Source of the DNA: Verrucomicrobiales bacterium | GTDB taxonomy: Bacteria; Verrucomicrobiota; Verrucomicrobiia; Limisphaerales; UBA9464 | Length of the DNA: 50,477 nt | NCBI GenBank assembly: GCA_027483345.1 | Contig: JAIXUV010000335.1 | Location: 1-50,477, forward strand | Direction: 5' to 3' | Part shown: positions 2,884 to 17,579 of the stretch, in pieces | Numbering within the stretch: position 1 is the stretch's first letter | How the letters are laid out: each line of letters starts with the position of its first letter | The notes under the pieces: model-generated | The model's database searches: none | Seen by the model: only the letters and a program-made list of their open reading frames with translations | Told to the model about the DNA's origin: nothing | Position numbers and translations under genes: made by a program

Positions 2884-5800
2884 TCACGGGGTGAGGATGA
2901 CCCGGTAGAAGCGACGCGGAGTCGGGCCGACGACATCCGACTTCGTCGCGGTTTCACCCGAGGCGATCACGACGCCCGGGATGTCGATCCAGATGGGATC
3001 CTCGAAGGAGGCCTTGCACTGGAGGGTGTAGGTCGTGCCGGGGCTGGAGTCCCAGACGAGGGTGACGACGCCGCCCGCCTGGGTCGCGGAGCGGACATTC
3101 GGCGAGGGCGGCAGGCGGACGGGGCCGGAGCAGTCGACGCGTGCGAGCACCGTGCGGGCGAGGCAGGTGTCCTGGCCCGAGGCCTCGAGGAGGCCGCCGG
3201 CGGTGTTGGTGCCCGTCGCCGGGGGATGGTTCCCGGAGAACCGGGCGGTCTCGCCGGGGGCGAGTTCGACGGGGCCGAAGACGGCGACGCGCACGTTGCC
3301 GTCACGGATCCCGTGGACCATGACGTTGGTCAGGTTGACGTCCCCGTTGTTCGTGATGAGTCCCGAGAAGGCGGAGGGGTCGCCGAAGAGCGATCCGGTT
3401 CCGCAGGCCTGGGAGATGGAGATGGCCGGGTAGGTCGCCATCGGGCAGACGCTGGTCGAGCGCGCGCTGACCGAGGTGCCGGCGCAGCGGTCCCGTCCGG
3501 TCGCGGTCACGGTCTCCGTGATCTCGCAGCAGTCGAGGGGGGCGGTGAAGCTCCCGGTGAACGTTGCCGAGGCCCCCGGGGCGAGCGTGATCGGCCCGAG
3601 CACCGGGGTGCCGTTGGTCGGTTGGCTGTTGTGGACGAAGACATTCGTCAGGGTGACGTCGCCGATGTTCCACACCGTTCCCGTGAAGGTGTGGATCCCG
3701 CCACGGGGCGTCGGAAGCGACGGACAACCGAGGGCCACCAGGATCGCGGGCGAGGTGGCGGGCGCGAGGCAGGTCGTGGTCACGCTGCCGGTGACGGCGG
3801 TGCCGCAGGTGCTGGTCCCGCGGGCGGTCAGGGTGTCCGTCCCGCAGTAGTCGGGGTCGTTCACATAGGAGCCCGTGAACGCGGCGGATTCGCCGGGGGC
3901 GAGCGAGGTCGGTCCGAACACCGGGTTCCCGCCCGGGGAGCGGTCATTGAAGACCACGACGCCGACGAGCGTGATGTCGCCGGAATTGCGCACGGTGCCG
4001 GTGTAGCGGAACTGCGCGCCCGCCGGGACCGCCGTCGTGGGGCAGGTCTTGGTCACCTCGACCGCCGGCGTGGAACCGACGACGCAGGTGGTGGTGGAGG
4101 TGTCGGAGGTCGGGAGGCCGGAGCAGGCGTCGATTCCCGACGCGGTGGCCGTGCTGGAGACCGTGCAGCAGTCGAGGGGCACCCGGAACGAGCCCGAGTA
4201 GGACGCCGAGGCGCCCGGTGCCAGCGAGGCCAGGGTGAGGACGGGCGTCGGGCCGACGCCGCTGTTGCGGACGACGACGTTGGACAGGGTGGTGTCACCG
4301 GAGTTCCGCACGGTTCCCGTGAAGAGCAGGAGCCCACCGGGCACCGGGGCCAGCGTGGGACAGGCCTGGACGACGGTCAGGCCGGGCGTGGTCGCGACGG
4401 CGCAGGTGGTGGTCGTCGCGTGGGTGACCTCGTTGCCGCAGGCGCTTGCGGCGGTCGCGGTCGAGGTGGCGGTCACCGTGCAGTTCGTCGGCGACGTCGT
4501 CCGGACGCTGAAGGTGGCGACGGCTCCCGGCGCGAGCGTGGCGGCCGAGAACACGGGGCTGGAACCCGCGAGGCTGTTGCGCACGGTCACGTTGGTGAGG
4601 GTGACGTCGCCGGAGTTGCGGACGGTGCCGGCGAACACGAAGGACGATCCCGGGATGGGCGGCTGGGCCGGGCAGGCCTGGGTCACCTCGATGGACGGAT
4701 GGGTGACCAGTTCGCAGCGGACGCTGGCCGAGCCCGTGACCGGGGCCCCGAGGCAGGCGTCGGTGCCGCTGGCGACGACCGTGGTCGCCACCGAGCAGGC
4801 GTCGACCGGGGCGTTGAAGCCGGCGAGGAAGGTCATCACGCCGCCCGGCGCGAGCGTGGCGGCGCGGGCGAGGACGTTGGTTCCGTTCTGGGTGTGGACC
4901 ACGGTGACGTCGACCAGGGTGATGTCGCCCGAATTGCGGACGGAACCCCGGAAGACGATCGGACCGCCAGCCGTGGCGTTGGTGACGGGGCATTCCACGA
5001 CGACGACCAGGGCGGGAGCGGTGGCGACGGGGCAGGTGAGGACCGCGCGGTGCGTGGCCGTGGCGAGGTTGCAGGCGTCGCGTCCGCCGGCCTCGAGGGT
5101 GGTCGAGGTGGTGCAGACGTTGGTGCCGACCGTGTAGGTTCCGGTGAAGTCCGCGCCTTCGCCCGGGGCCAGGGATGCGATCGTGAACACGGGGGTGTTT
5201 GCGGCCGGGCGGTCGGCGGTGACCGTGACGTTGGTCAGGGTGACATCACCCGAGTTCAGCACCCGTCCGGAGTAGCGGAGGAGTCCGCCGGGAAGGACCG
5301 GGCCGGTCGGGCAGGCGGCGCTCACGACGAGCGCCGGCGTGGTCAGAAGGTCGCATGTCGCGGTCGCCGAGTGGGTGGCGATCGCGCCACAGGGGCTCAC
5401 GCCCGTGGCGGTCAGGGTGTCGGAGACCGAGCAGTTGGTCGGGGCGAGGTAGCTTCCCGAGAAGGGGACCGTCTGACCCGGGGCCAGCGAGGCGATGGTG
5501 AAGACGGGCGTCGCGGGTCCGGGCCTGGAGTTGAGCACCACCACGTTGGTGAGCGTGACGTCACCGGTGTTGGCGACGGTGCCGGTGAAGGTGAGCAGCC
5601 GGCCGGGGGCGACGGGGCTGGTGGGACAGGACTTCGTCACCAGGATGCCCGGGGTGAGGGTGTTCTCGCAGACCAGCGTGGCGGAGCTGGTGACCGTCCT
5701 CGGCGCGGTCGTGAACTGGTCGACCGCCATGACGGTCAGGACGGCGGAGTTGGGGCCGCAGGGGTTGGACGGGATCCAGCCTCCCGAGAAGGTCGCGACC

Positions 5801-6624
5801 TGGCCGATGGCGAGGTTGGTGATGAAGGTGACGTGTTGGCCTCCGCCGTTCACGAAGTTGGTGACGGAGACGCCGACCAGGGCCGTGTTGCCGCAGTTGG
5901 TGATGCTGCCGGTGAAGCGGATCAGCCCGCCCTCGCCCACGCCGCCGAAGCAGAGTGCGGAGAGCGCGACGCAGGGCAGGTTGACCTCGGTGTTGACCCC
6001 CTGGTCCCCGCCGCCCCGGCTGTTGGTGTCGTTCTGGTGGATGTTGCCGTCGTCGAAGGCCGTGGTCCTGACGGTCCCGTCCGAACGCAGGTCCTGCGCG
6101 CGGACCACGTAGGAGACCACGTTGGTGTAGTAGTCGAATTCACCGTTGCTGAGCGAGGTGCGGCGCAGCGTGATGAGGTTGGTAACCCCGTCCGGGGTGA
6201 CGATGCCCGCCACGATCTCCGAGGCGTCGCAGACGATCCTTCCCGTGCCGGCGAGTCCGTTGAAGACGGTGACGCTGTAGGTGAGGGTGTCCCCGATGTG
6301 GACGTCGGCGCTGCTGGTGAAGAGGTTGATCCCGAGTCCGCTGCCGGTGCAGCCCGGCGGACGGATCTGGGCGTCGAGGCGGGTCGGCCCGATGGCCAGG
6401 AGCCACAGCATCGGGAAGAGGCCGAGCCAATGGGCCGAGGCCTTGGAGGACAGCTTCAGGACCCGGCCGAGGACCGCCTCGCCTGCGCGTTGGAACCGGC
6501 TTCGCCCGGATCGTCCGGAGGGACATCGCGGGCCGGTGGAGAAGATGCGTTGGGGTGTGGGTGGCGATGGGATGAACACCCGGACACGGTGCCCGTGAAG
6601 GATCCGCGTCCGCCATGGGGTCAA
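2884..6624 (-). CDS. large secreted protein with nine DUF11-like repeats
   Basis: The 1,246-residue protein has a hydrophobic signal segment near residues 66-87 (WLGLFPMLWLLAIGPTRLDA), an N-terminal domain, and nine tandem units of roughly 100 residues. The units are marked by variants of FTGTVRNSGDVTLTNV and by ..LAPGxxxxFxGS. This is the DUF11/TIGR01451 repeat pattern of bacterial surface proteins, probably immunoglobulin-like. Most units begin with a CP.xP motif and end in a Cys, so disulfides are plausible. The last ~80 residues (VTLVWDSSPGTTYTLQCKAS and RFYRVILTP) are a C-terminal module common in Verrucomicrobia secreted proteins. The start is uncertain: about 60 residues precede the signal segment, and operator-like sequences lie inside or over them, so translation may begin further downstream. 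It sits 51 bp after the receiver gene. Function is unknown; an adhesive or cell-surface role is inferred. Confidence 0.8.
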   Translation of the reverse strand: MTPWRTRILHGHRVRVFIPSPPTPQRIFSTGPRCPSGRSGRSRFQRAGEAVLGRVLKLSSKASAHWLGLFPMLWLLAIGPTRLDAQIRPPGCTGSGLGINLFTSSADVHIGDTLTYSVTVFNGLAGTGRIVCDASEIVAGIVTPDGVTNLITLRRTSLSNGEFDYYTNVVSYVVRAQDLRSDGTVRTTAFDDGNIHQNDTNSRGGGDQGVNTEVNLPCVALSALCFGGVGEGGLIRFTGSITNCGNTALVGVSVTNFVNGGGQHVTFITNLAIGQVATFSGGWIPSNPCGPNSAVLTVMAVDQFTTAPRTVTSSATLVCENTLTPGILVTKSCPTSPVAPGRLLTFTGTVANTGDVTLTNVVVLNSRPGPATPVFTIASLAPGQTVPFSGSYLAPTNCSVSDTLTATGVSPCGAIATHSATATCDLLTTPALVVSAACPTGPVLPGGLLRYSGRVLNSGDVTLTNVTVTADRPAANTPVFTIASLAPGEGADFTGTYTVGTNVCTTSTTLEAGGRDACNLATATHRAVLTCPVATAPALVVVVECPVTNATAGGPIVFRGSVRNSGDITLVDVTVVHTQNGTNVLARAATLAPGGVMTFLAGFNAPVDACSVATTVVASGTDACLGAPVTGSASVRCELVTHPSIEVTQACPAQPPIPGSSFVFAGTVRNSGDVTLTNVTVRNSLAGSSPVFSAATLAPGAVATFSVRTTSPTNCTVTATSTATAASACGNEVTHATTTTCAVATTPGLTVVQACPTLAPVPGGLLLFTGTVRNSGDTTLSNVVVRNSGVGPTPVLTLASLAPGASASYSGSFRVPLDCCTVSSTATASGIDACSGLPTSDTSTTTCVVGSTPAVEVTKTCPTTAVPAGAQFRYTGTVRNSGDITLVGVVVFNDRSPGGNPVFGPTSLAPGESAAFTGSYVNDPDYCGTDTLTARGTSTCGTAVTGSVTTTCLAPATSPAILVALGCPSLPTPRGGIHTFTGTVWNIGDVTLTNVFVHNSQPTNGTPVLGPITLAPGASATFTGSFTAPLDCCEITETVTATGRDRCAGTSVSARSTSVCPMATYPAISISQACGTGSLFGDPSAFSGLITNNGDVNLTNVMVHGIRDGNVRVAVFGPVELAPGETARFSGNHPPATGTNTAGGLLEASGQDTCLARTVLARVDCSGPVRLPPSPNVRSATQAGGVVTLVWDSSPGTTYTLQCKASFEDPIWIDIPGVVIASGETATKSDVVGPTPRRFYRVILTP
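6567..6584. promoter_or_regulatory. partial copy of the island palindrome
   Basis: ATGGGATGAACACCC matches the perfect site at 9903-9917 at 14 of 15 positions, including the same TGAACA spacer, but the last three bases of the right arm are lost. It lies inside the 5' end of the repeat-protein gene as drawn. If that gene starts further downstream, the site would be in its promoter region. Confidence 0.35.
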
Positions 6625-6675: not shown

Positions 6676-7113
6676 TCAGGTCGGCTGGATGCCGACGGGC
6701 CGCGGCCTCGCTCCAAGCAGCAGGGCGGCCTCGACCGTCTGCATCAGCGCCGGGACCTCGAAGGGTTTCTGGAGGACGAAGTCCGGCCGCAGCCAAGGCC
6801 GGAGCCGGAAGGATTCCTCGGGCACCGAACCCGAGATCATGATCACCGGGATCAGGAGGGCCGCGGCACGGATCTTCGCCATCAGGTCGAGGCCCGAGAG
6901 ACGGGGCATCGCATTGTCCGTCACCAACAGGCGGTAGTTCACCCGGTTCAAGGCCTCCCAGGCTTTTTCCCCGTCGAAGGCCGTGTCCACGGAATGCCCC
7001 ATCCGCAGGAGGATCCGGACGCCCAGTTGCCGGATCTCGGGGTCGTCTTCTGCCAACAGGATCCGGATCGGGCGGTTCTCCCCGGAACAATGGGATGGTG
7101 AAGTCGGGTTCAT
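6676..7113 (-). CDS. stand-alone response-regulator receiver protein
   Basis: The 145-residue protein is a CheY-like receiver with a short N-terminal extension and no output domain. The acidic pair is in LLAEDDPEIRQ (residues 19-29), the phospho-acceptor is Asp66 in VTDNAMPRLSG, the switch Ser is in ISGS (about 94) and the conserved Lys is in LQKPF (about 116). Such proteins act in phosphorelays or by protein contact. The ATG at 7113 is preceded by GGAGGAGAACC, one of the clearest Shine-Dalgarno sites in the window, which decides against the upstream ATG. It lies 166 bp downstream of the LuxR-type regulator, and the gap holds a perfect copy of the palindrome, so it may have its own promoter. 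Confidence 0.88.
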   Translation of the reverse strand: MNPTSPSHCSGENRPIRILLAEDDPEIRQLGVRILLRMGHSVDTAFDGEKAWEALNRVNYRLLVTDNAMPRLSGLDLMAKIRAAALLIPVIMISGSVPEESFRLRPWLRPDFVLQKPFEVPALMQTVEAALLLGARPRPVGIQPT

Positions 7114-7154
7114 GGTTCTCCTCCGATCAGGAGACGGGGACTCCACCGCCTGCG

Positions 7155-7279: not shown

Positions 7280-7957
7280 TCAGAGGATGCTGACCTTGAC
7301 GTCGCACTCGACGATCCCGGCTCCGATCGCGTACCGGGTCAAACCGGCCGTGTCGTGGATGTCGAGCTTCTCCATCAGGTGCTCGCGATGCTTCTCCACC
7401 GTCTTCATCCCGATGCCGAGTTCGGCCGCGGTCTCCTTGTTGGCCCGCCCCTCGGCGATGAGCTGGAGCACCTCGAGTTCGCGGGAGGTGAGCGATGGAC
7501 GCTTCCTGTAGGTTCCTTCCAGCCGACGTGCGACGCCGTTGGCCAGGGAGTCCGCGGCGCGCTCGCCCGGCGTGGTGAAGTAGGTCCGTGAGACCTGCGC
7601 CTTGCGGATCGCGCTGCAGACGTCGATCGAGGACGCCTGCTTCAGGATGAAGCCGGCTGCCCCGGACTCCTGGGCGGAGCGGACATAGGCGTCGTCGTTG
7701 TGGGCGGAAAGGATGAGGATCCGTGCACCCGGCAGGGCCTCCAAGATCTGGCGTGTCGCCTCCAGTCCGTTCATGCGCGGCATGGCGAAGTCCATGAGGA
7801 TGACATCGGGCTTGAGCGCGGTGGCGAGGGCGACGGCCTTCCTGCCGTTCTCGGCCTGGCCCGCCACCTCCATCCCGCCGTCGAGGAGCAACATCCGGCA
7901 TAGGCCTTCACGGACGACGGCGTGATCTTCGACGACGAGTACTCGGATCTTTTTCAT
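7280..7957 (-). CDS. NarL/FixJ-family response regulator (receiver + LuxR HTH)
   Basis: The 225-residue protein has a receiver domain (residues 1-120) with the acidic pair in VVEDHAVVREG and the phospho-acceptor Asp56 in ILMDFAMPRMNG. Its LuxR-type helix-turn-helix covers residues 155-215 and contains LTSRELEVLQLIAEG and MKTVEKHREHLMEKL. Proteins of this family bind palindromic DNA as phosphorylated dimers. Its ATG overlaps the stop of the histidine-kinase gene as ATGA, so the two are translationally coupled and form a cognate pair. The palindromes at 7155 and 9900 are natural candidates for its binding sites, but that is inference. Confidence 0.95.
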   Translation of the reverse strand: MKKIRVLVVEDHAVVREGLCRMLLLDGGMEVAGQAENGRKAVALATALKPDVILMDFAMPRMNGLEATRQILEALPGARILILSAHNDDAYVRSAQESGAAGFILKQASSIDVCSAIRKAQVSRTYFTTPGERAADSLANGVARRLEGTYRKRPSLTSRELEVLQLIAEGRANKETAAELGIGMKTVEKHREHLMEKLDIHDTAGLTRYAIGAGIVECDVKVSIL

Positions 7958-9126
7958 GGCTCTGTCTGCGGAGGCTTACGGGACCGGCTGGACTTCGTGG
8001 GGGACTTCGGGGTCTGGGAATGGGGGTGCTTGAACGGGATGATCACCTCGACGGTGGTCCCGTTCCCCGGGGTGGAATCGATCGAGAAGGAGCCGCCGAT
8101 CATCTCGGCCCGCTCCTGCATGCCCAACAGACCGAGGCGGCGGCCCGCGTTGCAGTTCTGGACGGCCTGCACATCGAAGGCGTGGCCATCGTCGGTGATC
8201 CTCAGGCGCATCCGCCTTGGTAGGCGTTCGATCGAGATGGCGGCGTTCGACGCCTTGGAGTGCTTGGCGACGTTGGTGAGCGCCTCCTGGACGATGCGGT
8301 ACAGCGTGGTGCGCCGGAGCGTGTTCAGGGTGTTGAGTCCGACGAAGGCGGTGAGGCGGGTCCGGATCCCGGTCTCCATGGTGAAGTGCCGCAGGTAGGA
8401 CTGCAGCGCGGGCACCAGGCCGAGGTCGTCCAACGCCGCGGGCCGGAGTTCCCGTGCGAACTGGTGGACCGTGTCCACGGACCGTTCGACCAGCCTCTGG
8501 GTCCGCGCGATGTTCCGGTCGAGCGAGCGGGAATTCCTCGACGCCTCCAGCTTGAGGTTCGCCAGCTGCACGTTGATGCCGCTCAGGGTCTGGGCGATGA
8601 CGTCGTGCAGTTCGCGGCTGATCCGGCGTCGTTCGTCCTCCTGTGCCGAAAGGATCTGCCTTGAGAGGTTCCGCAGCTGGTTCTGGAGGCGCTTCGAGGC
8701 CTCCAGCATCCCGGCGTGCTGCTTCTCCCGGTTCCGCATGTTGGCCTCGGTGGCCTGATGTCGGTGTGCGGCCTCGACGAGACCCTGGTTGGCCGACGCC
8801 AGTTCCACGGCGTGTCGGCTCATGGCCACCATCAGGGCCTGGCGGAAGTCGGCCTTGGCGGCCCTCTCGTAGCCGGAGGGGCCTTCTACGGCGGCCAGGA
8901 ACTCCGCCGCCCGCAGGACCAGGACGTCCCGCATCCCCGGTTCAATCCGCGGCAGGAACTCCTTGAGGAGCATCCGTTCATGGACTTCCACGAGGTCCTT
9001 CGGGAGGCCAACACGTTTTGCCGTGGCTGCCGGCGGGTCGCCGGAGCCGTCCGTGACGACGGCCCGCCCGGAGGCGAGGTGGGCCCGGAGGGCCGCCCGG
9101 TATCGTCGGATCATCAGTTTGGACAT
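7954..9126 (-). CDS. soluble histidine kinase with RsbU_N-like sensor region
   Basis: The 390-residue protein has no membrane segment. Residues 1-105 resemble the N-terminal domain of RsbU-type stress phosphatases, a helical partner-binding module (AAEFLAAVEGPSGYERA near 73-89). A coiled coil follows (about 110-165), then a HisKA_3 dimerisation domain with EDERRRISRELHDVIAQTLS, where His174 is the phosphorylation site. The HATPase domain has QEALTNVAKHS (N box, 280-290), TDDGHAFD (G1, His where Gly is usual) and LGLLGMQERAEMIGGSFS (G2). Dimerisation and ATP-binding motifs are otherwise complete, so it should be active. It is paired with the LuxR-type regulator through a 4-base overlap and starts 5 bp after the degenerate paralogue upstream. 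Confidence 0.9.
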   Translation of the reverse strand: MSKLMIRRYRAALRAHLASGRAVVTDGSGDPPAATAKRVGLPKDLVEVHERMLLKEFLPRIEPGMRDVLVLRAAEFLAAVEGPSGYERAAKADFRQALMVAMSRHAVELASANQGLVEAAHRHQATEANMRNREKQHAGMLEASKRLQNQLRNLSRQILSAQEDERRRISRELHDVIAQTLSGINVQLANLKLEASRNSRSLDRNIARTQRLVERSVDTVHQFARELRPAALDDLGLVPALQSYLRHFTMETGIRTRLTAFVGLNTLNTLRRTTLYRIVQEALTNVAKHSKASNAAISIERLPRRMRLRITDDGHAFDVQAVQNCNAGRRLGLLGMQERAEMIGGSFSIDSTPGNGTTVEVIIPFKHPHSQTPKSPTKSSRSRKPPQTEP

Positions 9127-9131
9127 GCGCG

Positions 9132-9827
9132 TCAGGACTTGGGTGAGGGGGAGGGGAGGGTTCCCACCTTGGTGGCCGCCGCCGAGACGTCCATCCGCAC
9201 CTTCGAGATGCCGGTGGCCAGGCTCTCGGTGTTCCGCCGCGCCTCGGTCCGGAGTCCGCGCAGCCACAGGTTGATGCCAATCATGGACTGGGCGATGTCG
9301 TTCCGAAGGCGCGCACCGTCGGCCTGTCCCCGGCGCTCCTGGGTCTTCAGCATCCGCCGCGTGAGCCTCCGGAGTTCGTCGTGGACACGTCGGGTCTTCG
9401 CCTCGACGCCCGCGTGTCGGACCTTGGTGTCCCGGAGCTGTTCCGTGAGCACCCGGTTCCGGGCGGCTCCCTTGCGGAACTCCAGCCGGCTGGAGGCCAG
9501 CTGGAGGGTCCTCCTGGAAAGCGCCGAGCCCAGACGTGCCAGCTCGGCGCGGTAGTGCAGCGAGGTCCGATGCAGGAAGACCAGCGGCTCGATCGCCGCG
9601 GCGAAGAAGCGGGCCGATCTCCCCGAGTCCCGCGCCGTGATGCCGGGGCGAAGCCGGTCCACCGCCGACGCATGGATCCGGGCCAGGTCCGGCAGGGAGA
9701 CGCCATCCGCCGCGGCCTCGCGGCCCAATTCCAGCGCCTGGCGCGCCTGGGAGGAGGCGCCCGCCTTCAGGTGCAGTCCCAGTGCGGCCTCGTACCGGAG
9801 CGCCCAGGTTTCCTCGTTTGGTTTCAT
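9132..9827 (-). CDS. RsbU_N-like protein with degenerate HisKA_3 region, no ATPase domain
   Basis: The 231-residue protein has the same layout as the kinase downstream but stops before the catalytic domain. Residues 8-95 are RsbU_N-like (ALRYEAALGLHLKAG, LELGREAAADGVSLPDLARIH and SARFFAAAIEPLVFLHR), followed by a coiled coil (about 96-160). The region at 162-200 lines up with the kinase dimerisation domain: GARLRNDIAQSMIGINLWL against SRELHDVIAQTLSGINVQL. The phospho-accepting His is Arg175 and the adjacent Asp is Asn176, and no N, G1 or G2 box follows. It is therefore unlikely to be a kinase and may be a regulatory partner that dimerises with it. It is the first gene of the signalling operon. 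Confidence 0.78.
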   Translation of the reverse strand: MKPNEETWALRYEAALGLHLKAGASSQARQALELGREAAADGVSLPDLARIHASAVDRLRPGITARDSGRSARFFAAAIEPLVFLHRTSLHYRAELARLGSALSRRTLQLASSRLEFRKGAARNRVLTEQLRDTKVRHAGVEAKTRRVHDELRRLTRRMLKTQERRGQADGARLRNDIAQSMIGINLWLRGLRTEARRNTESLATGISKVRMDVSAAATKVGTLPSPSPKS

Positions 9828-10129: not shown

Positions 10130-11308
10130 ATGCCCACGAACCGGCCCCTGTTCTGGATCCCCTTCCTGGGACTCCTGATGTCCTCTCCGGTCCGGATGCA
10201 GGCCCAGCTGGATCCCTATCCACGCAGTCTCCTCCAGTTGGGTGTGGACCAGGCGGTCTCGGCGGTCGGTCCCCAGTCCCTGTACGCCTACTACTACTCC
10301 AACCATCCGTTCACCGGCGACAGCAACCGCGTCCTTCGCCTGGTGGTCGCCCCGCTCTTCGTCGACGGCGAGCTGGGGTTCCGCTCGCTGCTTTCGCCGG
10401 ACACCGACGTGGGCATCGGCTTCGGAGGCGGAGGCTATTCCGAGAACCAGTTCGAGATCCGGAAGGGGCGCTACATCCGCGAGGAGAGCTTCGACGGCCA
10501 TGGTGGCGGCGGTTCGCTGAGGCTCTACCACCGCATCAACCCGGGCGGCCGGATCCCGCTGAGCCTGGTGGTCCAGGGCGGTGCCCGCTTCTCGACCTTC
10601 GCCCGGACGGGCCGGACGGCGGAGGAGTTCATTCCGCCCGCGGACCGGGTCGAGGCGGACCTGCGCACGGGCCTGCGCCTCGCGGGCGCCGAGCCGCTGC
10701 TCTATCCCGACCTGGCGATGGAGATGTCGGTCTGGATCGAGCGCCGGTGGCGTCTGGATCCCGGCAGCTACGGCTATGACGGTTCCTTTGCCGTCCGGCC
10801 CCACTCGGACGTCGGGTGGATCCATGCGGCCCTGAACTATCCCTGGGTCCCGAGCGGAAACCAGATGACGGTGTCGTTGACGGCCGGGGGCACCATGGAC
10901 GCGGACCGGTTCAGCGCCTGGCGCCTGGGCGGGGTCCTGCCCTTGGGGTCGGAGACGCCGTTGGCCCTGCCCGGGTATTTCTACCGGGAACTTTCCGCCA
11001 CGCGCTTCGTCCATGCAGGCGCCACCTACGTGGCCCCGCTGTCCGGTTCCCACCGCTGGCAGCTCCGGCTCGCCGCCGCGGGCGCGGTGATCCGGTTCCT
11101 CCCCGGATTGGAGCAGTCCGGCCGGTGGCATGCCGGGGTGGGACCCGGTCTGGAGTACACCTCACGCAACCAGGTATGGCGGGTCGTGGTGCACTACGGC
11201 TACGGCGCCTTCGCACCGCGCGGGGAACGGCAGGGCGCCCACAGCGTCGGGCTGCTCTACCAGTTCAACTTCGAACGGCGGTCCGTCCGTCGGGAAGCGG
11301 CGCAGTGA
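10130..11308 (+). CDS. putative outer-membrane beta-barrel protein
   Basis: The 392-residue protein has a signal peptide (residues 1-25, WIPFLGLLMSSPVRMQA then Q). The rest alternates polar and hydrophobic residues and is rich in aromatic ones, with strands such as DVGIGFGGGGYSENQFEIRK and WRVVVHYGYGAFAPR, and it ends HSVGLLYQFNF, a typical C-terminal barrel strand with terminal Phe followed by a short basic tail. I do not recognise a specific family. The ATG at 10130 is chosen because it begins the signal peptide; the same frame is open upstream without coding character. It is divergent from the signalling operon and is followed by an entericidin-like and a BON gene on the same strand, so envelope stress is a reasonable context. 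Confidence 0.75.
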   Translation: MPTNRPLFWIPFLGLLMSSPVRMQAQLDPYPRSLLQLGVDQAVSAVGPQSLYAYYYSNHPFTGDSNRVLRLVVAPLFVDGELGFRSLLSPDTDVGIGFGGGGYSENQFEIRKGRYIREESFDGHGGGGSLRLYHRINPGGRIPLSLVVQGGARFSTFARTGRTAEEFIPPADRVEADLRTGLRLAGAEPLLYPDLAMEMSVWIERRWRLDPGSYGYDGSFAVRPHSDVGWIHAALNYPWVPSGNQMTVSLTAGGTMDADRFSAWRLGGVLPLGSETPLALPGYFYRELSATRFVHAGATYVAPLSGSHRWQLRLAAAGAVIRFLPGLEQSGRWHAGVGPGLEYTSRNQVWRVVVHYGYGAFAPRGERQGAHSVGLLYQFNFERRSVRREAAQ

Positions 11309-11366: not shown

Positions 11367-11525
11367 ATGAAAACCCACAACATGAGCCAACATCGATTGA
11401 AACGCATCGGCACGCTGGGCCTCGTGGTCCTGATTTTCGCCTCGGCCCTCGGCTGCAACACTGCGCAGGGCTTCAGCAAGGACATGGAGAAGGCCGGCCA
11501 GAAGATCCAGCAGGGGACCGATTGA
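11367..11525 (+). CDS. entericidin-like small lipoprotein
   Basis: The 52-residue protein has a signal sequence (LGLVVLIFASALG) with lipidation Cys30, followed by CNTAQGFSKDMEKAGQKIQQ. The CNTxxGxxxDxxxxGxxI pattern is that of entericidin A/B, small cell-envelope lipoproteins induced in stationary phase or by osmotic change in enterobacteria. The lipobox (SALGC) is acceptable but not optimal. There are two in-frame ATGs (11367 and 11382), and the second could be the true start. It lies 58 bp after the barrel gene and 175 bp before the BON gene. The role of entericidins is still debated. Confidence 0.8.
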   Translation: MKTHNMSQHRLKRIGTLGLVVLIFASALGCNTAQGFSKDMEKAGQKIQQGTD

Positions 11526-11643: not shown

Positions 11644-11687
11644 GTTCCGATGGTCCGGGACTCGGCTTGCCGGGCGGACATCGGAAC
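11644..11687 (+). promoter_or_regulatory. stem-loop in the leader of the BON gene
   Basis: GTTCCGATG plus TCCG (11644-11657, with one bulged G) is complementary to CGGA plus CATCGGAAC (11675-11687), giving a 13-bp stem around a 17-base loop. It ends 13 bp before the ATG. It could be an RNA structure that controls translation or mRNA stability, or a DNA operator. Confidence 0.5.
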
Positions 11688-11700
11688 GAAAGAAACCGCC

Positions 11701-12477
11701 ATGAGAAATCCCACATCCCTTCCCCTGCTGCTCGCCACCGGCACCCTGTTCCTCCTCAGCCACGCCGCCTTCGGCGCGGAGACCGACAACCGGATCGAGT
11801 CCTCGGCCAAGGCGTCCTACGTGTTCAAGACCTACCTTAAGGACGACGCGGTCCACACCGAATCCAAGGACGGCGTGGTCACCCTCACCGGGACGGTCTC
11901 GGATCCTTCGCATCGCCGGATGGCCGAGGACACGGTCGAGGGGCTCCCCGGGGTCAAGCGGGTCGAGAACCGGATCACGGTCACCGGCGAAGAGGTAGCG
12001 GAGCATTCGGACGCGTGGCTGGGCACCAAGGTGAAGGCTGCGCTCCTGTTCCATCGCAACGTCAGCGCTACTTCGACCGACGTGTTCGTGAAGGACGGCG
12101 TGGTGAGCCTCCGCGGTGAGGCCCAGAACGAGGCCCAGAAGGAGCTGACCGCCGAATACGCCTGGGACATCGAGGGGGTCAAGGAGGTGAAGAACGAGAT
12201 GACCCTCGCTGCCAAGCCCGTCGAGGTGAAGGTAAAGCTCAGCGAACGGATCGACGACGCCTCGATCACCGCCCAGGTGAAGGCTTCGTTGATGCTCCAC
12301 CGTTCCACCAGCGCGCTGAAGACCAAGGTCCAGACGACCGAGGGCGTTGTCACGGTCAGCGGTGTGGCTAAGAACCCCGCCGAAAAGAGCCTGGTCACGA
12401 AGCTCATCAGCGACATCCACGGAGTGCACGGCGTCGTCAACCAGATGACGGTGGCCGAGCCGGTGGCCAGCAACTGA
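11701..12477 (+). CDS. periplasmic triple-BON-domain protein (OsmY-like)
   Basis: The 258-residue protein has a signal peptide (residues 1-22, ending AAFGA) and three BON domains at about 28-95, 105-170 and 185-250. Each has an initial helix, a VHTESKDGVVTLTGTV-type strand pair and a G-V-x-x-V-x-N ending (GVKRVENRITV, GVKEVKNEMTL, GVHGVVNQMTV). BON domains occur in OsmY and DolP, periplasmic proteins linked to envelope integrity under osmotic or stationary-phase stress. The ATG at 11701 is chosen since it begins the signal peptide. The hairpin just upstream may regulate it. It is the last gene of the plus-strand envelope group and converges on the subtilase gene. Confidence 0.88.
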   Translation: MRNPTSLPLLLATGTLFLLSHAAFGAETDNRIESSAKASYVFKTYLKDDAVHTESKDGVVTLTGTVSDPSHRRMAEDTVEGLPGVKRVENRITVTGEEVAEHSDAWLGTKVKAALLFHRNVSATSTDVFVKDGVVSLRGEAQNEAQKELTAEYAWDIEGVKEVKNEMTLAAKPVEVKVKLSERIDDASITAQVKASLMLHRSTSALKTKVQTTEGVVTVSGVAKNPAEKSLVTKLISDIHGVHGVVNQMTVAEPVASN

Positions 12478-12626: not shown

Positions 12627-15600
12627 TCACGGTTGGAAGAGACGGTAGTAGCGTTGCGAGGCCGTGGCCGGACGCGGGTCGCTCCATTCGACCGCGGAGG
12701 CACCCGACACCACCTCGCCGACGTTTTCCCAAGTGCCGCCGAGTTCGGTTGCCGACTGGACCTGCCAACGGCTGCCGGCCGGGCCGTGGATCCGGAGACG
12801 GGGCTGCGGCGCCGTGGCGAGCACCTCCAGACGGGGCTGTTCCGAAACCCCGTCCGTCCGCCATCCCAGGACGATCTCGCCTTCCGCCTGCAGGATCGAC
12901 GGCTCGGTGTAGAGGAAGCCGTCCACGGCGATGTGGTAGGTGGTTCCCGCGACGGCCGGGAAGGAGATCCGGCTCTGGAGCACCTCCGGGCCGAGGTCGT
13001 CGTTCTGGGCCACACGGGTGAGGGCTCCGAGGGATGTTCCGGTGTAGGCCGCCAGCACGGTGTCGAACCGGGATTCCACCGTCTCGAAGGTCACCGTGGC
13101 GCTACGCGGCGCGGTCCACGACCACCAGGCCGAGCGCGCACCGATGTTCGCCTCCGGCAGTCCGGCCGGCTGGTGGGTCGGCTCGCCCGGTTCCCGTGAG
13201 AAGTTGACGTTGCCGGCCATCGCCCGGCCGCTGGCGTTGGCGATGGCGAAGGCCGAGCCAAAGGCGTCGTTCACGCCGGAACAGTCGGCGCAGTTCCAGT
13301 TGAGGATGATGGCGCCCTCGGCTTGGAACACGGGATCGGTGTAGCGGAAGCCGTCGACGGCGAACCAGTACCGGACGCCCTGGACGGCCTCGAATTCCAC
13401 CTCGCTTTGCAGGAGGTCCGTGTCGATGTCGTCGTTCTGGGCCACGGGCTGGAGGGATCCGAGGACGTCGCCGGTGTACACCGCGAGCACGGTGTCGAAG
13501 GCGCTCCCGCGGGTGTTCACGGTGACCGTGCTGTTGGCGGGAGCGGTCCAGGACCACCACGCGGACCGCTGTCCGACATTGGCTGTGGGGAGGTTGGGCG
13601 GCTGGTGGGTGGGTTCACCGGCCTCGCGGGAGTAGCCGCCGCTGTCGCCGTTGGCGCGTCCGATGGCTCCCTCCAGCGGCGTGGCCTCCTCGAACCGGTC
13701 GTTGGAACGACGCCAATCCACGCGGAGCGAGTAGTCCGGGATCAGCGCGTTGGCGTCGTATTCGTTGACCCGGACCAGGTAGCGGCCGGGCGCCAGACCC
13801 GGGACCGAGATGCGTGAGAACAGGCTGCCGGGAATGTCGTCGTTGAAGGCGATCGGGTTGGTGGGAGCCGAGGCGGCGAAGAGGGTGACCTGGGTGTCGC
13901 CCGCGAGTCCCGCGGTCTCGATGACCACCTGACGCACCGTGCCGGTGATGTCGAAGTAGGCGAGGTCCGATTCCCCGGCGGCATGCAGCGAACGTCGCTG
14001 GGTCTCGCCGCTGCGGATGGGCTTCGCCTCGGCCGGGGTGTTGTCCGGCTCGAAGGTGTCCCCCGCGAGCACCGGCCGGACCTGCGACCTCAGCGACAGG
14101 GTGATCGGGCCGGATTCACCGCTGAAGCCGTCCACCGCGATCTGGTAGGCCGTCCCCGCCTGCGCATCCAACAGCACGCGGCTGGTGGTGTCGCCGTTCC
14201 CGTCGTCGTCCTGGGCGACCGGGGTCAGCGAACCCACGGCGGTTCCGGTGTAGATCCCCAGCAGCGTGTCGAAGGGCGAACCGGCCGTGGTCACGGCGAA
14301 GGTCCCGGTGGACGGTGCGGTCCAGGTCCACCAGACGGAACGTCCACCGGCATTCCCGGCGATCGTGGGTTCACCCGGTTCCCGACCGGCTCCCACGTTG
14401 CCGCCGGAGACGGTGACGTTGGTTCCGGCCAGGCTGATGCGGCCGGCGAAGAGGTCGTTGGACGGGACGGCGCCGTCCGCTGTCACGAGCAGTTCCAGGT
14501 CGAAGGTGCCGGATCCGGCGCCGAAGCCGTCGTTGCGTCCGTCGACGGCAACCTGGATCGGCACGCCAGCGGTGACGCGGAAGGCGAACACGGTGCCGCG
14601 GCCGACCGCGCTGCTGCCGGAGGCGACCTCGGTGAGCTGTCCCACGGCGGTGCCCGTGTAGGCGGCGAGGAGCGGGGCGAAGCCGGAATTGGTCAGGGTG
14701 ATGCGGGCAGTTCCGCTGATGGGCGGGGTCCAGGTCCACCAGACGGAGCGTCCGCCGAGGTTGGCCGCGTGCTGGGGTTCGCCCTCCTCACGCGTGGCGC
14801 CGACGTTCGTGGCCTGGATCTGGACCCTCGGGCCGGCGACCGCCAGGCGGTCGGCGAACCGGTCGTTCTGCGGGGCCGGCGGCGGGACGAACAGGCTGAT
14901 CCCGAGACGGACCCGGCCGAAGGCGCCGCCCGCGCCGTCCACCGCGATGACGTAGGTGGAGCCGGCGACGGCGTTGAACTCGACGCGGCTCTGCGGGCCT
15001 TCACCGCCGTCGTTGTCCGAGGCGACCGGGGTCAACGAGGCCAGCGACGTGCCGGAGTAGACCGCGAGCGTGGTGTCGAAGTCGCTGCCGTCGGTGGTGA
15101 AGGTCGCGACGCCGGAGGCGGGGGCGGTCCAGGACCACCACACCGAGCGGCTGGCGGCGAGGCCCGCATGGGCGGGTTCGCCGACCTCGGCGGTGGCGTT
15201 GGTGGAGGAGCCGAGAACCACCTCGTTGGTGCCGACCACCGGGACACGGCTGGCGAAGCGGTCGTTGCCCGGCGGCACCACGGAGACCGTCTGGTTCAGC
15301 GTCAGCTGGATGTCCCCCTCGGCGCCTCCGTATCCGTCCACCGCGATCTGGTAGGTCCGTCCTGAGATGGCGTTGAAGGAGACCCGGCTCGAGGTACCGT
15401 TGCCTCCGTCGTCGTTGCTGGCGACCTGGTTGAGCGCACCGACCGAGCTGCCCGTGTAGATGCCCAGGACCGTGTCGAAACTGCTGCCCACGGTGTGGAT
15501 CACCACCGGTCCGGCGGCCTGGGCGGTCCAACGCCACCAGACCGAGTGGGTGGCCAACGATCCTGCGTGGGAGGGCTCACCGGACTGCGAGGTCGCCCCG

Positions 15601-17579
15601 GTGTTCGCTCCGATGGTCTGGACGCTGGTGCCTTCGAGGACGGTGGCGGAGGCGAAGGCGTCGTTCAGGATCGGCCCGCGCACCTGGTAGACGACGGTGT
15701 TGGTCGTGGAGGCCACACCCGGCGCGCTGGCCTCGAGGACGAGGTTCAGGAGCGTGTTGGTTCCCGGGAGGACGATCTCGGCCGAGTAGGTTCCATCGGC
15801 TGCGGTGACATCGGGAGTCCGGCCGGTGTTGAGGAACCGGATCTCCGGTCGGCCGGCGATGCGTCCGATGACAGTCGCGTTGGTGACCGGGCCGTTGCCG
15901 GTGACCTGGACGAAGAACGGGCGGGTGGTCCCGGTGTCGAGGCGAACACTGGTCGCGGGGGAGACGGCGAGTTCGAGAAGGGGTTCCAGGTTGTCCGACA
16001 GGGCGCGGAAGGCGTTGACGCGTCCGCCCGTGGTGGTCTTGCCGCGGAGCGAGGGGATGCGGACGACGCTGGACAGGATGCGCTGGCGCACGGCCTGGGC
16101 GCCGAGTTCGGGGTACCGGGCGAGGATCAGCGCGGCGATGCCCGAGACGTGCGGCGTGGCCATGCTGGTGCCATTGAACGACGCATAGGCATCGTCGGAG
16201 CCCTTGATCGAGGAGTAGATGGCGACGCCGGGGGCTCCGACGTGCACCGAGGTGGCGCCGAAGTTGGAGAAGTCGGCCAGCTTGTCCTGGCGGTCGATCG
16301 CGGCGACGGAGATCACGTTGTCCGCCCGGAAGCTGGCCGGATAGGCGGGGCCGGTGTCGTTGTTGTTCGATTCATTTCCAGCGGCCGCGACGAACAGGAC
16401 GCCGCGGGCCCGGGCCCGGTTGATCGAGTCCAGCACCGCCTGGCTGAAGGGACCGCCACCCCAGCTGTTGCTGAGGATCCGGGCGCCCTTGCGGGTGGCG
16501 AAGTCGATGCACTTGATGGAATCCGAGGTCGCGCCGCTTCCGTTCGCGGCGAGGAACTTGCAGGCCATGATCTGGACCTTCCAGACGACGCCGACGTGGG
16601 GGCCCGATCCGTTCGCCGCCGCGCCGATCGTTCCGGCGCAGTGGGTGCCGTGGTTGTTGTCGTCGTTTGGATCCCCGGTGTTGTTAATGGCGTTGATGCC
16701 GAAAACGTTGTCCACGTAGCCATCGCCGTCGTCGTCGATGCGGTTGCCCGGGATCTCGCCGGGATTGCGCCACATCTGCGGCGCGAGGTCCTGGTGGGTG
16801 TAGCGCACGCCGGAGTCGATCACGGCCACGATGACGTTGGTGGATCCGGTGGTGATCTCCCAGGCGCGCACGGCGTCGATGTCGGCCCCGGCGACGCCTC
16901 CGGCGGCTCCCTGGTTGCGCAGGCCCCAGAGGGTGCCGTCGTTGAAGCCGGAATCCGTGGGGAGTTCCAATGCCCGCACGATGTAGTCGGGCTCGACGTA
17001 TTCGAAGAGGCCGGAGTTCTTGAGGCCCTTCATGCGGGTGACCAGTTCGGCGCCGAGACGCTTCGCCTCGGTCTCGTCGGCGACGGCTCCCGGCTTCGGG
17101 CCGAGCGTGTCGAGGATGAGCGCCCCGGAGTCGACGCGGCTGTCGACCTTGAGGAAGAGGTCGCCGAGGAGCTTCTCCCGCGGCTCGGACGGCCCGTTGC
17201 CGGAAAGCGGCTTGGCGATCAGGCGGGTCGGATGGACGCGGTGTCCGTCGATGATTGCGAAGGAGCGCTCCAGGTCGATGGGTGCCTGGGGATCGGAGTT
17301 GCCGGCGCCAGGGGTGACCTGAGCGGCCGACGTGGCGGAAGAGGGCAGAACCGTGGCGGTCGTGGCGGCGGAAACCGTGGGGGTCTCCGTCTTCGAGGAG
17401 GCACCCAGCGTCGCAGTTGGGGTCGGGATGGCGGAGGCCGAGGCGGTGGGCGAGGCAACCGCATTCGATCCTCGGGACGCTTGGGCAGCGGTCTCGGCCC
17501 GATCCGAAACGCGGATCTTGAGGGCCAATGCGGCGACGAAAAGGACGAGGAGGGCGGCGGCGAGGCGTCGGGTGGTCAT
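12627..17579 (-). CDS. secreted subtilisin-like serine protease with seven C-terminal modules
   Basis: The 1,650-residue protein has a signal peptide (residues 1-20), a Ser/Thr/Pro/Ala-rich linker (about 30-95), a propeptide-like region (100-205, ending VEPDYIVRAL) and an S8 catalytic domain (about 235-530). The catalytic triad is Asp255 in AVIDSGVRYTH, His310 in NNHGTHCAGT and Ser472 in NGTSMATPHVSG, with Asn402 as the oxyanion residue. Six modules with an SVWWxWTAP..FDTxLxxYTG..AVDG signature follow, and one classical PPC module (GDTFEPDNTPAEAKPI) sits between the fourth and fifth. The C-terminal ~65 residues (WQVQSATELGGTWENVG and YYRLFQP) resemble the end module of the DUF11-repeat protein. 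It probably acts outside the cell or on the surface. It stands alone, convergent with the BON gene. Confidence 0.93.
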   Translation of the reverse strand: MTTRRLAAALLVLFVAALALKIRVSDRAETAAQASRGSNAVASPTASASAIPTPTATLGASSKTETPTVSAATTATVLPSSATSAAQVTPGAGNSDPQAPIDLERSFAIIDGHRVHPTRLIAKPLSGNGPSEPREKLLGDLFLKVDSRVDSGALILDTLGPKPGAVADETEAKRLGAELVTRMKGLKNSGLFEYVEPDYIVRALELPTDSGFNDGTLWGLRNQGAAGGVAGADIDAVRAWEITTGSTNVIVAVIDSGVRYTHQDLAPQMWRNPGEIPGNRIDDDGDGYVDNVFGINAINNTGDPNDDNNHGTHCAGTIGAAANGSGPHVGVVWKVQIMACKFLAANGSGATSDSIKCIDFATRKGARILSNSWGGGPFSQAVLDSINRARARGVLFVAAAGNESNNNDTGPAYPASFRADNVISVAAIDRQDKLADFSNFGATSVHVGAPGVAIYSSIKGSDDAYASFNGTSMATPHVSGIAALILARYPELGAQAVRQRILSSVVRIPSLRGKTTTGGRVNAFRALSDNLEPLLELAVSPATSVRLDTGTTRPFFVQVTGNGPVTNATVIGRIAGRPEIRFLNTGRTPDVTAADGTYSAEIVLPGTNTLLNLVLEASAPGVASTTNTVVYQVRGPILNDAFASATVLEGTSVQTIGANTGATSQSGEPSHAGSLATHSVWWRWTAQAAGPVVIHTVGSSFDTVLGIYTGSSVGALNQVASNDDGGNGTSSRVSFNAISGRTYQIAVDGYGGAEGDIQLTLNQTVSVVPPGNDRFASRVPVVGTNEVVLGSSTNATAEVGEPAHAGLAASRSVWWSWTAPASGVATFTTDGSDFDTTLAVYSGTSLASLTPVASDNDGGEGPQSRVEFNAVAGSTYVIAVDGAGGAFGRVRLGISLFVPPPAPQNDRFADRLAVAGPRVQIQATNVGATREEGEPQHAANLGGRSVWWTWTPPISGTARITLTNSGFAPLLAAYTGTAVGQLTEVASGSSAVGRGTVFAFRVTAGVPIQVAVDGRNDGFGAGSGTFDLELLVTADGAVPSNDLFAGRISLAGTNVTVSGGNVGAGREPGEPTIAGNAGGRSVWWTWTAPSTGTFAVTTAGSPFDTLLGIYTGTAVGSLTPVAQDDDGNGDTTSRVLLDAQAGTAYQIAVDGFSGESGPITLSLRSQVRPVLAGDTFEPDNTPAEAKPIRSGETQRRSLHAAGESDLAYFDITGTVRQVVIETAGLAGDTQVTLFAASAPTNPIAFNDDIPGSLFSRISVPGLAPGRYLVRVNEYDANALIPDYSLRVDWRRSNDRFEEATPLEGAIGRANGDSGGYSREAGEPTHQPPNLPTANVGQRSAWWSWTAPANSTVTVNTRGSAFDTVLAVYTGDVLGSLQPVAQNDDIDTDLLQSEVEFEAVQGVRYWFAVDGFRYTDPVFQAEGAIILNWNCADCSGVNDAFGSAFAIANASGRAMAGNVNFSREPGEPTHQPAGLPEANIGARSAWWSWTAPRSATVTFETVESRFDTVLAAYTGTSLGALTRVAQNDDLGPEVLQSRISFPAVAGTTYHIAVDGFLYTEPSILQAEGEIVLGWRTDGVSEQPRLEVLATAPQPRLRIHGPAGSRWQVQSATELGGTWENVGEVVSGASAVEWSDPRPATASQRYYRLFQP

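Follow-up and report, generated by a model that had tools for sequence, protein, structure and literature searches.

A Family of ATPase-less Kinase Paralogues Paired with HisKA_3 Histidine Kinases in Verrucomicrobia: a Candidate Brake on a Two-Component System

A kinase paralogue in a two-component operon

The window, by which we mean the whole stretch of 50,477 nucleotides that was analysed, carries on its minus strand an operon of at least three genes in the order A-B-C. The features on which the argument depends are the following.

9132..9827, minus strand: gene A, 231 aa; an open frame with a weak RsbU_N-like helical domain, a long coiled coil and a complete DHp domain, followed by a stop
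9301..9303, minus strand: codon 175 of A (counted from the ATG at 9827), Arg, replacing the phospho-accepting His of the ELHD motif
9298-9300, minus strand: codon 176 of A, Asn, replacing the Asp of the ELHD motif
9286..9288, minus strand: codon 180 of A, the Gln that ends the HisKA_3 phosphatase motif DxxxQ (NxxxQ in this protein)
7954..9126, minus strand: gene B, 390 aa; a cytoplasmic, soluble-looking HisKA_3 histidine kinase with an intact ELHD..Q motif and a HATPase_c domain
7280..7957, minus strand: gene C, 225 aa; a NarL/LuxR-type response regulator with the phosphorylation residues of its receiver present
6676..7146, minus strand: a receiver-only response regulator, after gene C
11650..12477, plus strand: a triple-BON-domain secreted protein, upstream of A and not in the operon; a possible target or stress context

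Genes A and B are separated by five bases (9127-9131), as the first-pass annotation had stated, and the start of C shares 4 bases with the end of B. The same annotation took A for a paralogue of the adjacent kinase, and BLASTP bears this out with 31% identity over 211 columns (A residues 11-211 against B residues 8-210, E = 5e-19). A ends where the linker of B toward its ATPase domain begins. In the alignment, the ELHD of B corresponds to RLRN in A, in agreement with the Arg and Asn that had been read at the His and Asp positions. The absence of the catalytic domain was equally well called: HATPase_c found no Pfam match in window A and matches B at 4.7e-15. Window A thus has neither the phospho-accepting His nor the HATPase_c domain that characterize an active HisKA_3 kinase, and on its sequence it would fit the description of a pseudohistidine kinase, i.e. 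a kinase-related protein without catalytic ability. It is not a split kinase in the strict sense, as A has no His while B possesses both the His and the ATPase domain.

Window A matches the RsbU_N domain (PF08673) proposed for it only weakly, at 19.0 bits and E 0.0016, which is under the Pfam cut-off of 25.5 bits, but 38 of 46 relatives match at E <= 0.01, the best of them at 5.3e-8. Similarly, HisKA_3 (PF07730) was not matched in Pfam by window A itself, whose kinship to B comes from BLAST, and is matched at E <= 0.01 by 43 of the 46 relatives. The Met-Lys start of A is conserved across the family. Among solved structures, DesK is the one closest to B; for A, a profile of 46 proteins hit no solved structure at E <= 0.01. 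The predicted structure of A, computed from an alignment of only three rows (the window proteins plus one locus), is all-helical, with a mean pLDDT of 74, a pTM of 0.40 and the DHp hairpin not formed.

Distribution and conservation of the A family

A single A protein compared with genome contigs matched only the sister metagenome-assembled genome (MAG), and whole-genome profile searches with A were used instead, covering 320 genomes of the order, 384 of the class and 388 of the phylum. Opposite-strand neighbour clusters proved to be shadow frames and were set aside. A search for conserved pairs had been suggested as a check, and the A-B layout indeed recurs in about 65 genomes across the Verrucomicrobia phylum, with about 50 A loci in the order and further ones in the class and in other classes of the phylum. 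Within the window's own genus, A occurs in only 2 of 19 genomes; the sister copy, from a MAG of that genus, shares 73% identity with window A.

Our sample comprised 67 A proteins with a readable DHp region. With the frames read at each locus, no member of this 67-protein family continues into an ATPase domain. Relatives retaining both the His and the ATPase domain in the same gene position had been named as the finding that would turn A into a decayed copy, and the ATPase domain was present at none of the loci. The A frames stop no further than about 15 residues from the end of the DHp domain, with two exceptions: in G154 the match breaks off inside the DHp domain and the frame continues for 71 unrelated residues, and in G248 (L083 2323-3879) the frame of A runs on into a fused CheB methylesterase domain. 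The phospho-site tells a different story. The lost His of the first-pass annotation is real in window A, where it is Arg, but 20 of the 67 relatives keep it, and we rejected His loss as the defining feature of the family. Loss of the ATPase domain is the universal trait; loss of the His is not.

The coupling of the genes is usually tighter than in the window. Among order-level pairs the A/B overlap is -4 in 25 cases and -11 in 8, and most pairs from the class and phylum offer start options of -4, -11 or -29, so the +5 spacing of the window is unusual. A LuxR-type regulator of one family then follows in 40 of 50 order-level loci. A receiver-only regulator like that at 6676..7146 stands after the operon in about nine other loci, and it may belong to the A-B-C system. 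Other partners occur as well. In G247, G245 and G269, a PAS-type HisKA_3 kinase directly follows A. CheB or CheB/CheR proteins come after A in G037, G152, G074 and G104, and three of these (G037, G152 and G104) have a HisKA_3 kinase further downstream. In G537, neither A nor B has the N-terminal domain, but the coil and the DHp domain are present in both. What unites the partners whose kinase could be read is the coil-DHp part, and we infer that the contact with A lies there. Additional HisKA_3 proteins with the motif ELHDNITQLL are encoded downstream near the operons at L069, L082, L093, L094, L142, L144 and L145.

The coil itself is strikingly uniform. Measured from a conserved Phe in the N-terminal domain to the Glu that opens the DHp domain, it spans exactly 89 residues in 60 of 62 A proteins and in 75 of 81 B proteins, and coil length is identical between A and B in 50 of 52 pairs. 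Such a fixed helix length, free of insertions, would fit a parallel coiled coil whose register has to be preserved. Taken with the gene overlaps, the equal coil length makes a mixed A-B dimer plausible; separate homodimers or shared ancestry would give the same picture.

To place A relative to B, a careful maximum-likelihood tree of both was built with the His, Asp and Gln columns left out. The A proteins form one side of a branch against B (support 100/99; 100% of bootstrap trees), which fits a single duplication of a B-like kinase and subsequent loss of the ATPase domain. B-type kinases without any A account for 25 of the 81 N-domain-bearing B proteins collected, although one of these, L100, is really an A-like frame. 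The branch of window A and its sister is very long, at 2.7 changes per column; the window pair is thus a fast-evolving, divergent and atypical member of the family. Pairwise dN/dS values of A range from 0.06 to 0.38, close to those of B in the same genomes, which argues that A is maintained under purifying selection and hence functional by its evolution. We also noted shortened or interrupted A genes beside intact kinases at four loci: stops fall within A in G728 (L153), and A is partial in G322 (L145), in the second copy of G338 (L136) and in G391 (L142). Thus, some lineages can lose A or retain it in reduced form. The idea that the A family as such consists of pseudogenes was discarded in view of its phylum-wide conservation, its dN/dS and its invariant columns.

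Only 8 of 227 columns of A are without change on the tree. Among polar DHp columns these are just the glutamine five residues after the His (Gln+5) and Glu-11; in the N-terminal domain G35, A38, H52 and F74 do not change within the A family. The phospho-site behaves quite differently from that glutamine. Over the 67 proteins, the His position is occupied by Q in 40, H in 20, R in 4, and K, V and F in one each, and the Asp position by D in 50, N in 15, and S and E in one each, whereas Gln+5 is Q in all 67 (and in 93 of 95 B proteins). The minimum number of changes on the A tree is 15 for His, 10 for Asp and zero for Gln; counted simply as His versus not-His, there are at least 12. Between positions +2 and +18 after the His, mean identity in paired proteins is nearly the same in A (0.756) and B (0.766). 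Elsewhere A is the less conserved partner: paired identity is 0.584 in A versus 0.805 in B for the helix before the His, and 0.521 versus 0.704 for alpha-2, and the coil follows the same trend. A proteins with the His have HD in 19 cases and HE in one, and those without it have D in 31, N in 15 and S in one, an association between His and the acidic neighbour with a Fisher p of 0.0016 that is uncorrected for relatedness. The Asp-to-Asn replacement was found solely in A proteins that lack the His, which suggests that the Asp may be kept mostly as a partner of the His.

Possible functions of A

The first-pass annotation saw in A a non-catalytic paralogous partner of the kinase, and the conservation of the two as a pair in many genomes supports this view; the heterodimers that it envisaged are plausible. 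As to what such a partner does, we favour, tentatively and with somewhat more doubt than trust, the reading that A is a brake acting through the phosphatase face of its DHp domain and through mixed dimers. A would be the dedicated non-kinase partner within the A-B-C operon, and the parallel coiled coil and the DHp four-helix bundle would join it to B in mixed dimers; alternatively, A might form dimers of its own. A is unable to bind ATP and, in most lineages, to carry phosphate, and autophosphorylation of a mixed dimer would be lowered as a result. The DHp surface and the glutamine of A, presented to C, would promote removal of phosphate, while the RsbU_N-like N-terminal domains would gate the extent of A-B association. 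The outcome would be a brake, or a set threshold, on the LuxR-type regulator C, which probably serves an envelope or osmotic stress response.

That A might favour dephosphorylation of C is proposed from the invariant glutamine, from the conserved helix and from published precedents: HisKA_3 kinases have DxxxQ as their phosphatase motif, and for NtrB and EnvZ, both HisKA kinases, the DHp domain alone suffices for phosphatase activity (PMC3510030, PMC8199190). Several points weaken the case for a brake. The DHp-alone precedents come from HisKA and not from HisKA_3 proteins, and the glutamine, being retained also in B, could be structural. NarX requires both the D and the Q of DxxxQ (PMC3510030), but Asn replaces the D in window A and in 14 relatives; the phosphatase activity of these members, the window protein included, may be weak or absent. 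Identical coil length would also be expected from shared ancestry or from separate homodimers, and in about a third of the family the intact His-Asp could be phosphorylated by B. The more far-reaching version, in which the ATPase-less DHp proteins of the entire phylum would be dedicated response-regulator phosphatase subunits of the neighbouring kinase, their His, its acidic neighbour and the CA domain discarded (the His repeatedly) and their glutamine face fully constrained, strikes us as conceivable but doubtful. In two cases it is the partner of A that departs at the glutamine. The B of the sister genome (L029, G030:C544, start of the kinase fragment) has Arg for the phosphatase Gln (HDVIARTL), and the A of that genome keeps Gln; the B of G182 has Ala at this position. 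Where B carries such an Arg or Ala, a division of labour between A and B is possible.

Much of the same evidence would suit a role for A as an allosteric partner in a heterodimer, where it would activate or tune B and feed in a second signal via its own N-terminal domain, the glutamine being incidental. The register-matched coil, the operon coupling of A and B and the unchanged G35, A38, H52 and F74 all point this way, as do the findings that FasC cut down to its transmembrane (TM) part and DHp still supports FasB and that DivL functions without its ATPase domain or phospho-site (PMC12675982, PMC9491836). Taken alone, however, this explanation leaves unaccounted for a glutamine that stays invariant on the phosphotransfer face while the neighbouring His and Asp vary, and we regard it as rather unlikely. 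The His-bearing minority raises another prospect, namely that A receives phosphate on its His from B in trans, in the manner of CheA3/CheA4, and that free A then acts as a phosphatase to give a switch-like response. All 20 of the 67 A proteins with a His have an acidic neighbour, Asp gives way to Asn only after the His is lost (with the same uncorrected p value), and there are described split kinases with phosphatase activity on the free partner (PMC3591291). Yet such a scheme is inapplicable to window A and the other 46 His-less members, and with its own intact His and ATPase domain in B nothing is split; we consider it improbable.

The N-terminal domain could instead bind an RsbT-like GHKL switch kinase, as RsbU does, with the DHp domain serving only as a dimeriser. 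RsbU_N matches in 38 of 46 members and the stress-type neighbours BON, OsmC, DUF883 and YflT are in keeping with regulation through such a partner, but the matches are weak, B and the kinases without A have the same kind of domain, and none of the genes noted in the operon is RsbT-like; we think this account highly improbable. Scarcely credible, finally, is that A is a decaying duplicate of B, kept by chance as a pseudogene in progress. The long branch of the window pair, the absence of A from 17 of 19 genomes of the genus, the partial copies in G322, G338 (second copy) and G391 and the internal stops in G728 would agree with decay; an open, full-length frame under purifying selection in most genomes, an identical truncation point everywhere and columns invariant over the whole phylum do not.

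Related systems and genomic setting

The first-pass annotation was aware of no described system of this type, a statement that is too strong, since DivL, RetS, FasC, ChrS_CA-fs and CheA3/CheA4 are close in kind. The FasB-FasC-FasA system of group A Streptococcus likewise combines adjacent kinase-like genes with a response regulator, and one partner, FasC, needs only its sensor and DHp parts (PMC12675982). Two-hybrid assays gave evidence of heterodimers there; FasC still has a dispensable kinase domain and needs its His246, and the Fas system uses membrane sensors and a response regulator of ComE type, unlike the NarL/LuxR-type C (PMC12675982). ChrS_CA-fs of Corynebacterium glutamicum resembles A in being of HisKA_3 type without a CA domain and in affecting signalling by a paralogous kinase with no need for its own His; it differs in that it arose once in laboratory evolution with no phylum-wide family, and in that the truncated form gave no two-hybrid heterodimer and raised output (PMC9491836). 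DivL of Caulobacter and RetS of Pseudomonas are kinase-dead or kinase-opposing relatives acting on CckA and GacS, but they are full-length proteins with ATPase-like domains, of HisKA type, and form no coupled gene pair with their partner. In the CheA3/CheA4 system of Rhodobacter, too, a protein without its own ATPase domain works with a second protein, and phosphatase activity is mainly on the free partner (PMC3591291); there, however, phospho-site and ATPase are divided, whereas B is complete and most A proteins are without a phospho-site. NarX and DesK belong to the same DHp sequence class as A and likewise have the phosphatase glutamine at position +5 from the His, but both are complete bifunctional kinases. 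The A family is a variant on known pseudohistidine-kinase and split-kinase systems, and new as such. Among open-licence PMC papers we found none on the A family and no literature on verrucomicrobial RsbU-type kinases.

In bifunctional histidine kinases one protein both phosphorylates and dephosphorylates, and the two functions are hard to separate. If A is a dedicated brake, nature would have made this separation within a HisKA_3 system, and the loss of the His a dozen or more times would reveal the DHp residues on which dephosphorylation depends when the kinase is absent. Such a brake would, moreover, provide a concrete regulator for the stress physiology of a poorly studied phylum, and small natural building blocks with which thresholds could be set in two-component circuits.

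Besides the triple-BON-domain protein of the window, BON-domain relatives lie near A in 12 loci, and OsmC, DUF883 and YflT-like proteins are also its neighbours in several; a weak entericidin match lies upstream of A in the window, at 11367-11525. As their relatives in Escherichia coli and Bacillus show, genes of these types are typical of osmotic or general stress, and a stress role for the A-B-C system is likely.

Three large or secreted proteins are encoded around the operon. Divergent from A, at 10130-11308 on the plus strand, is a 392-aa secreted, porin-like protein with no Pfam match. Beside the receiver-only regulator, 2884-6624 on the minus strand encodes 1246 aa made up of roughly ten repeats that resemble one another (FTGTVRNSGDVTLTNV...); the product is probably a surface protein rich in repeats. 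Further away, at 12627-17579 on the minus strand, a protein of 1650 aa consists of a subtilisin-like protease followed by repeated SVWWTWTAP modules.
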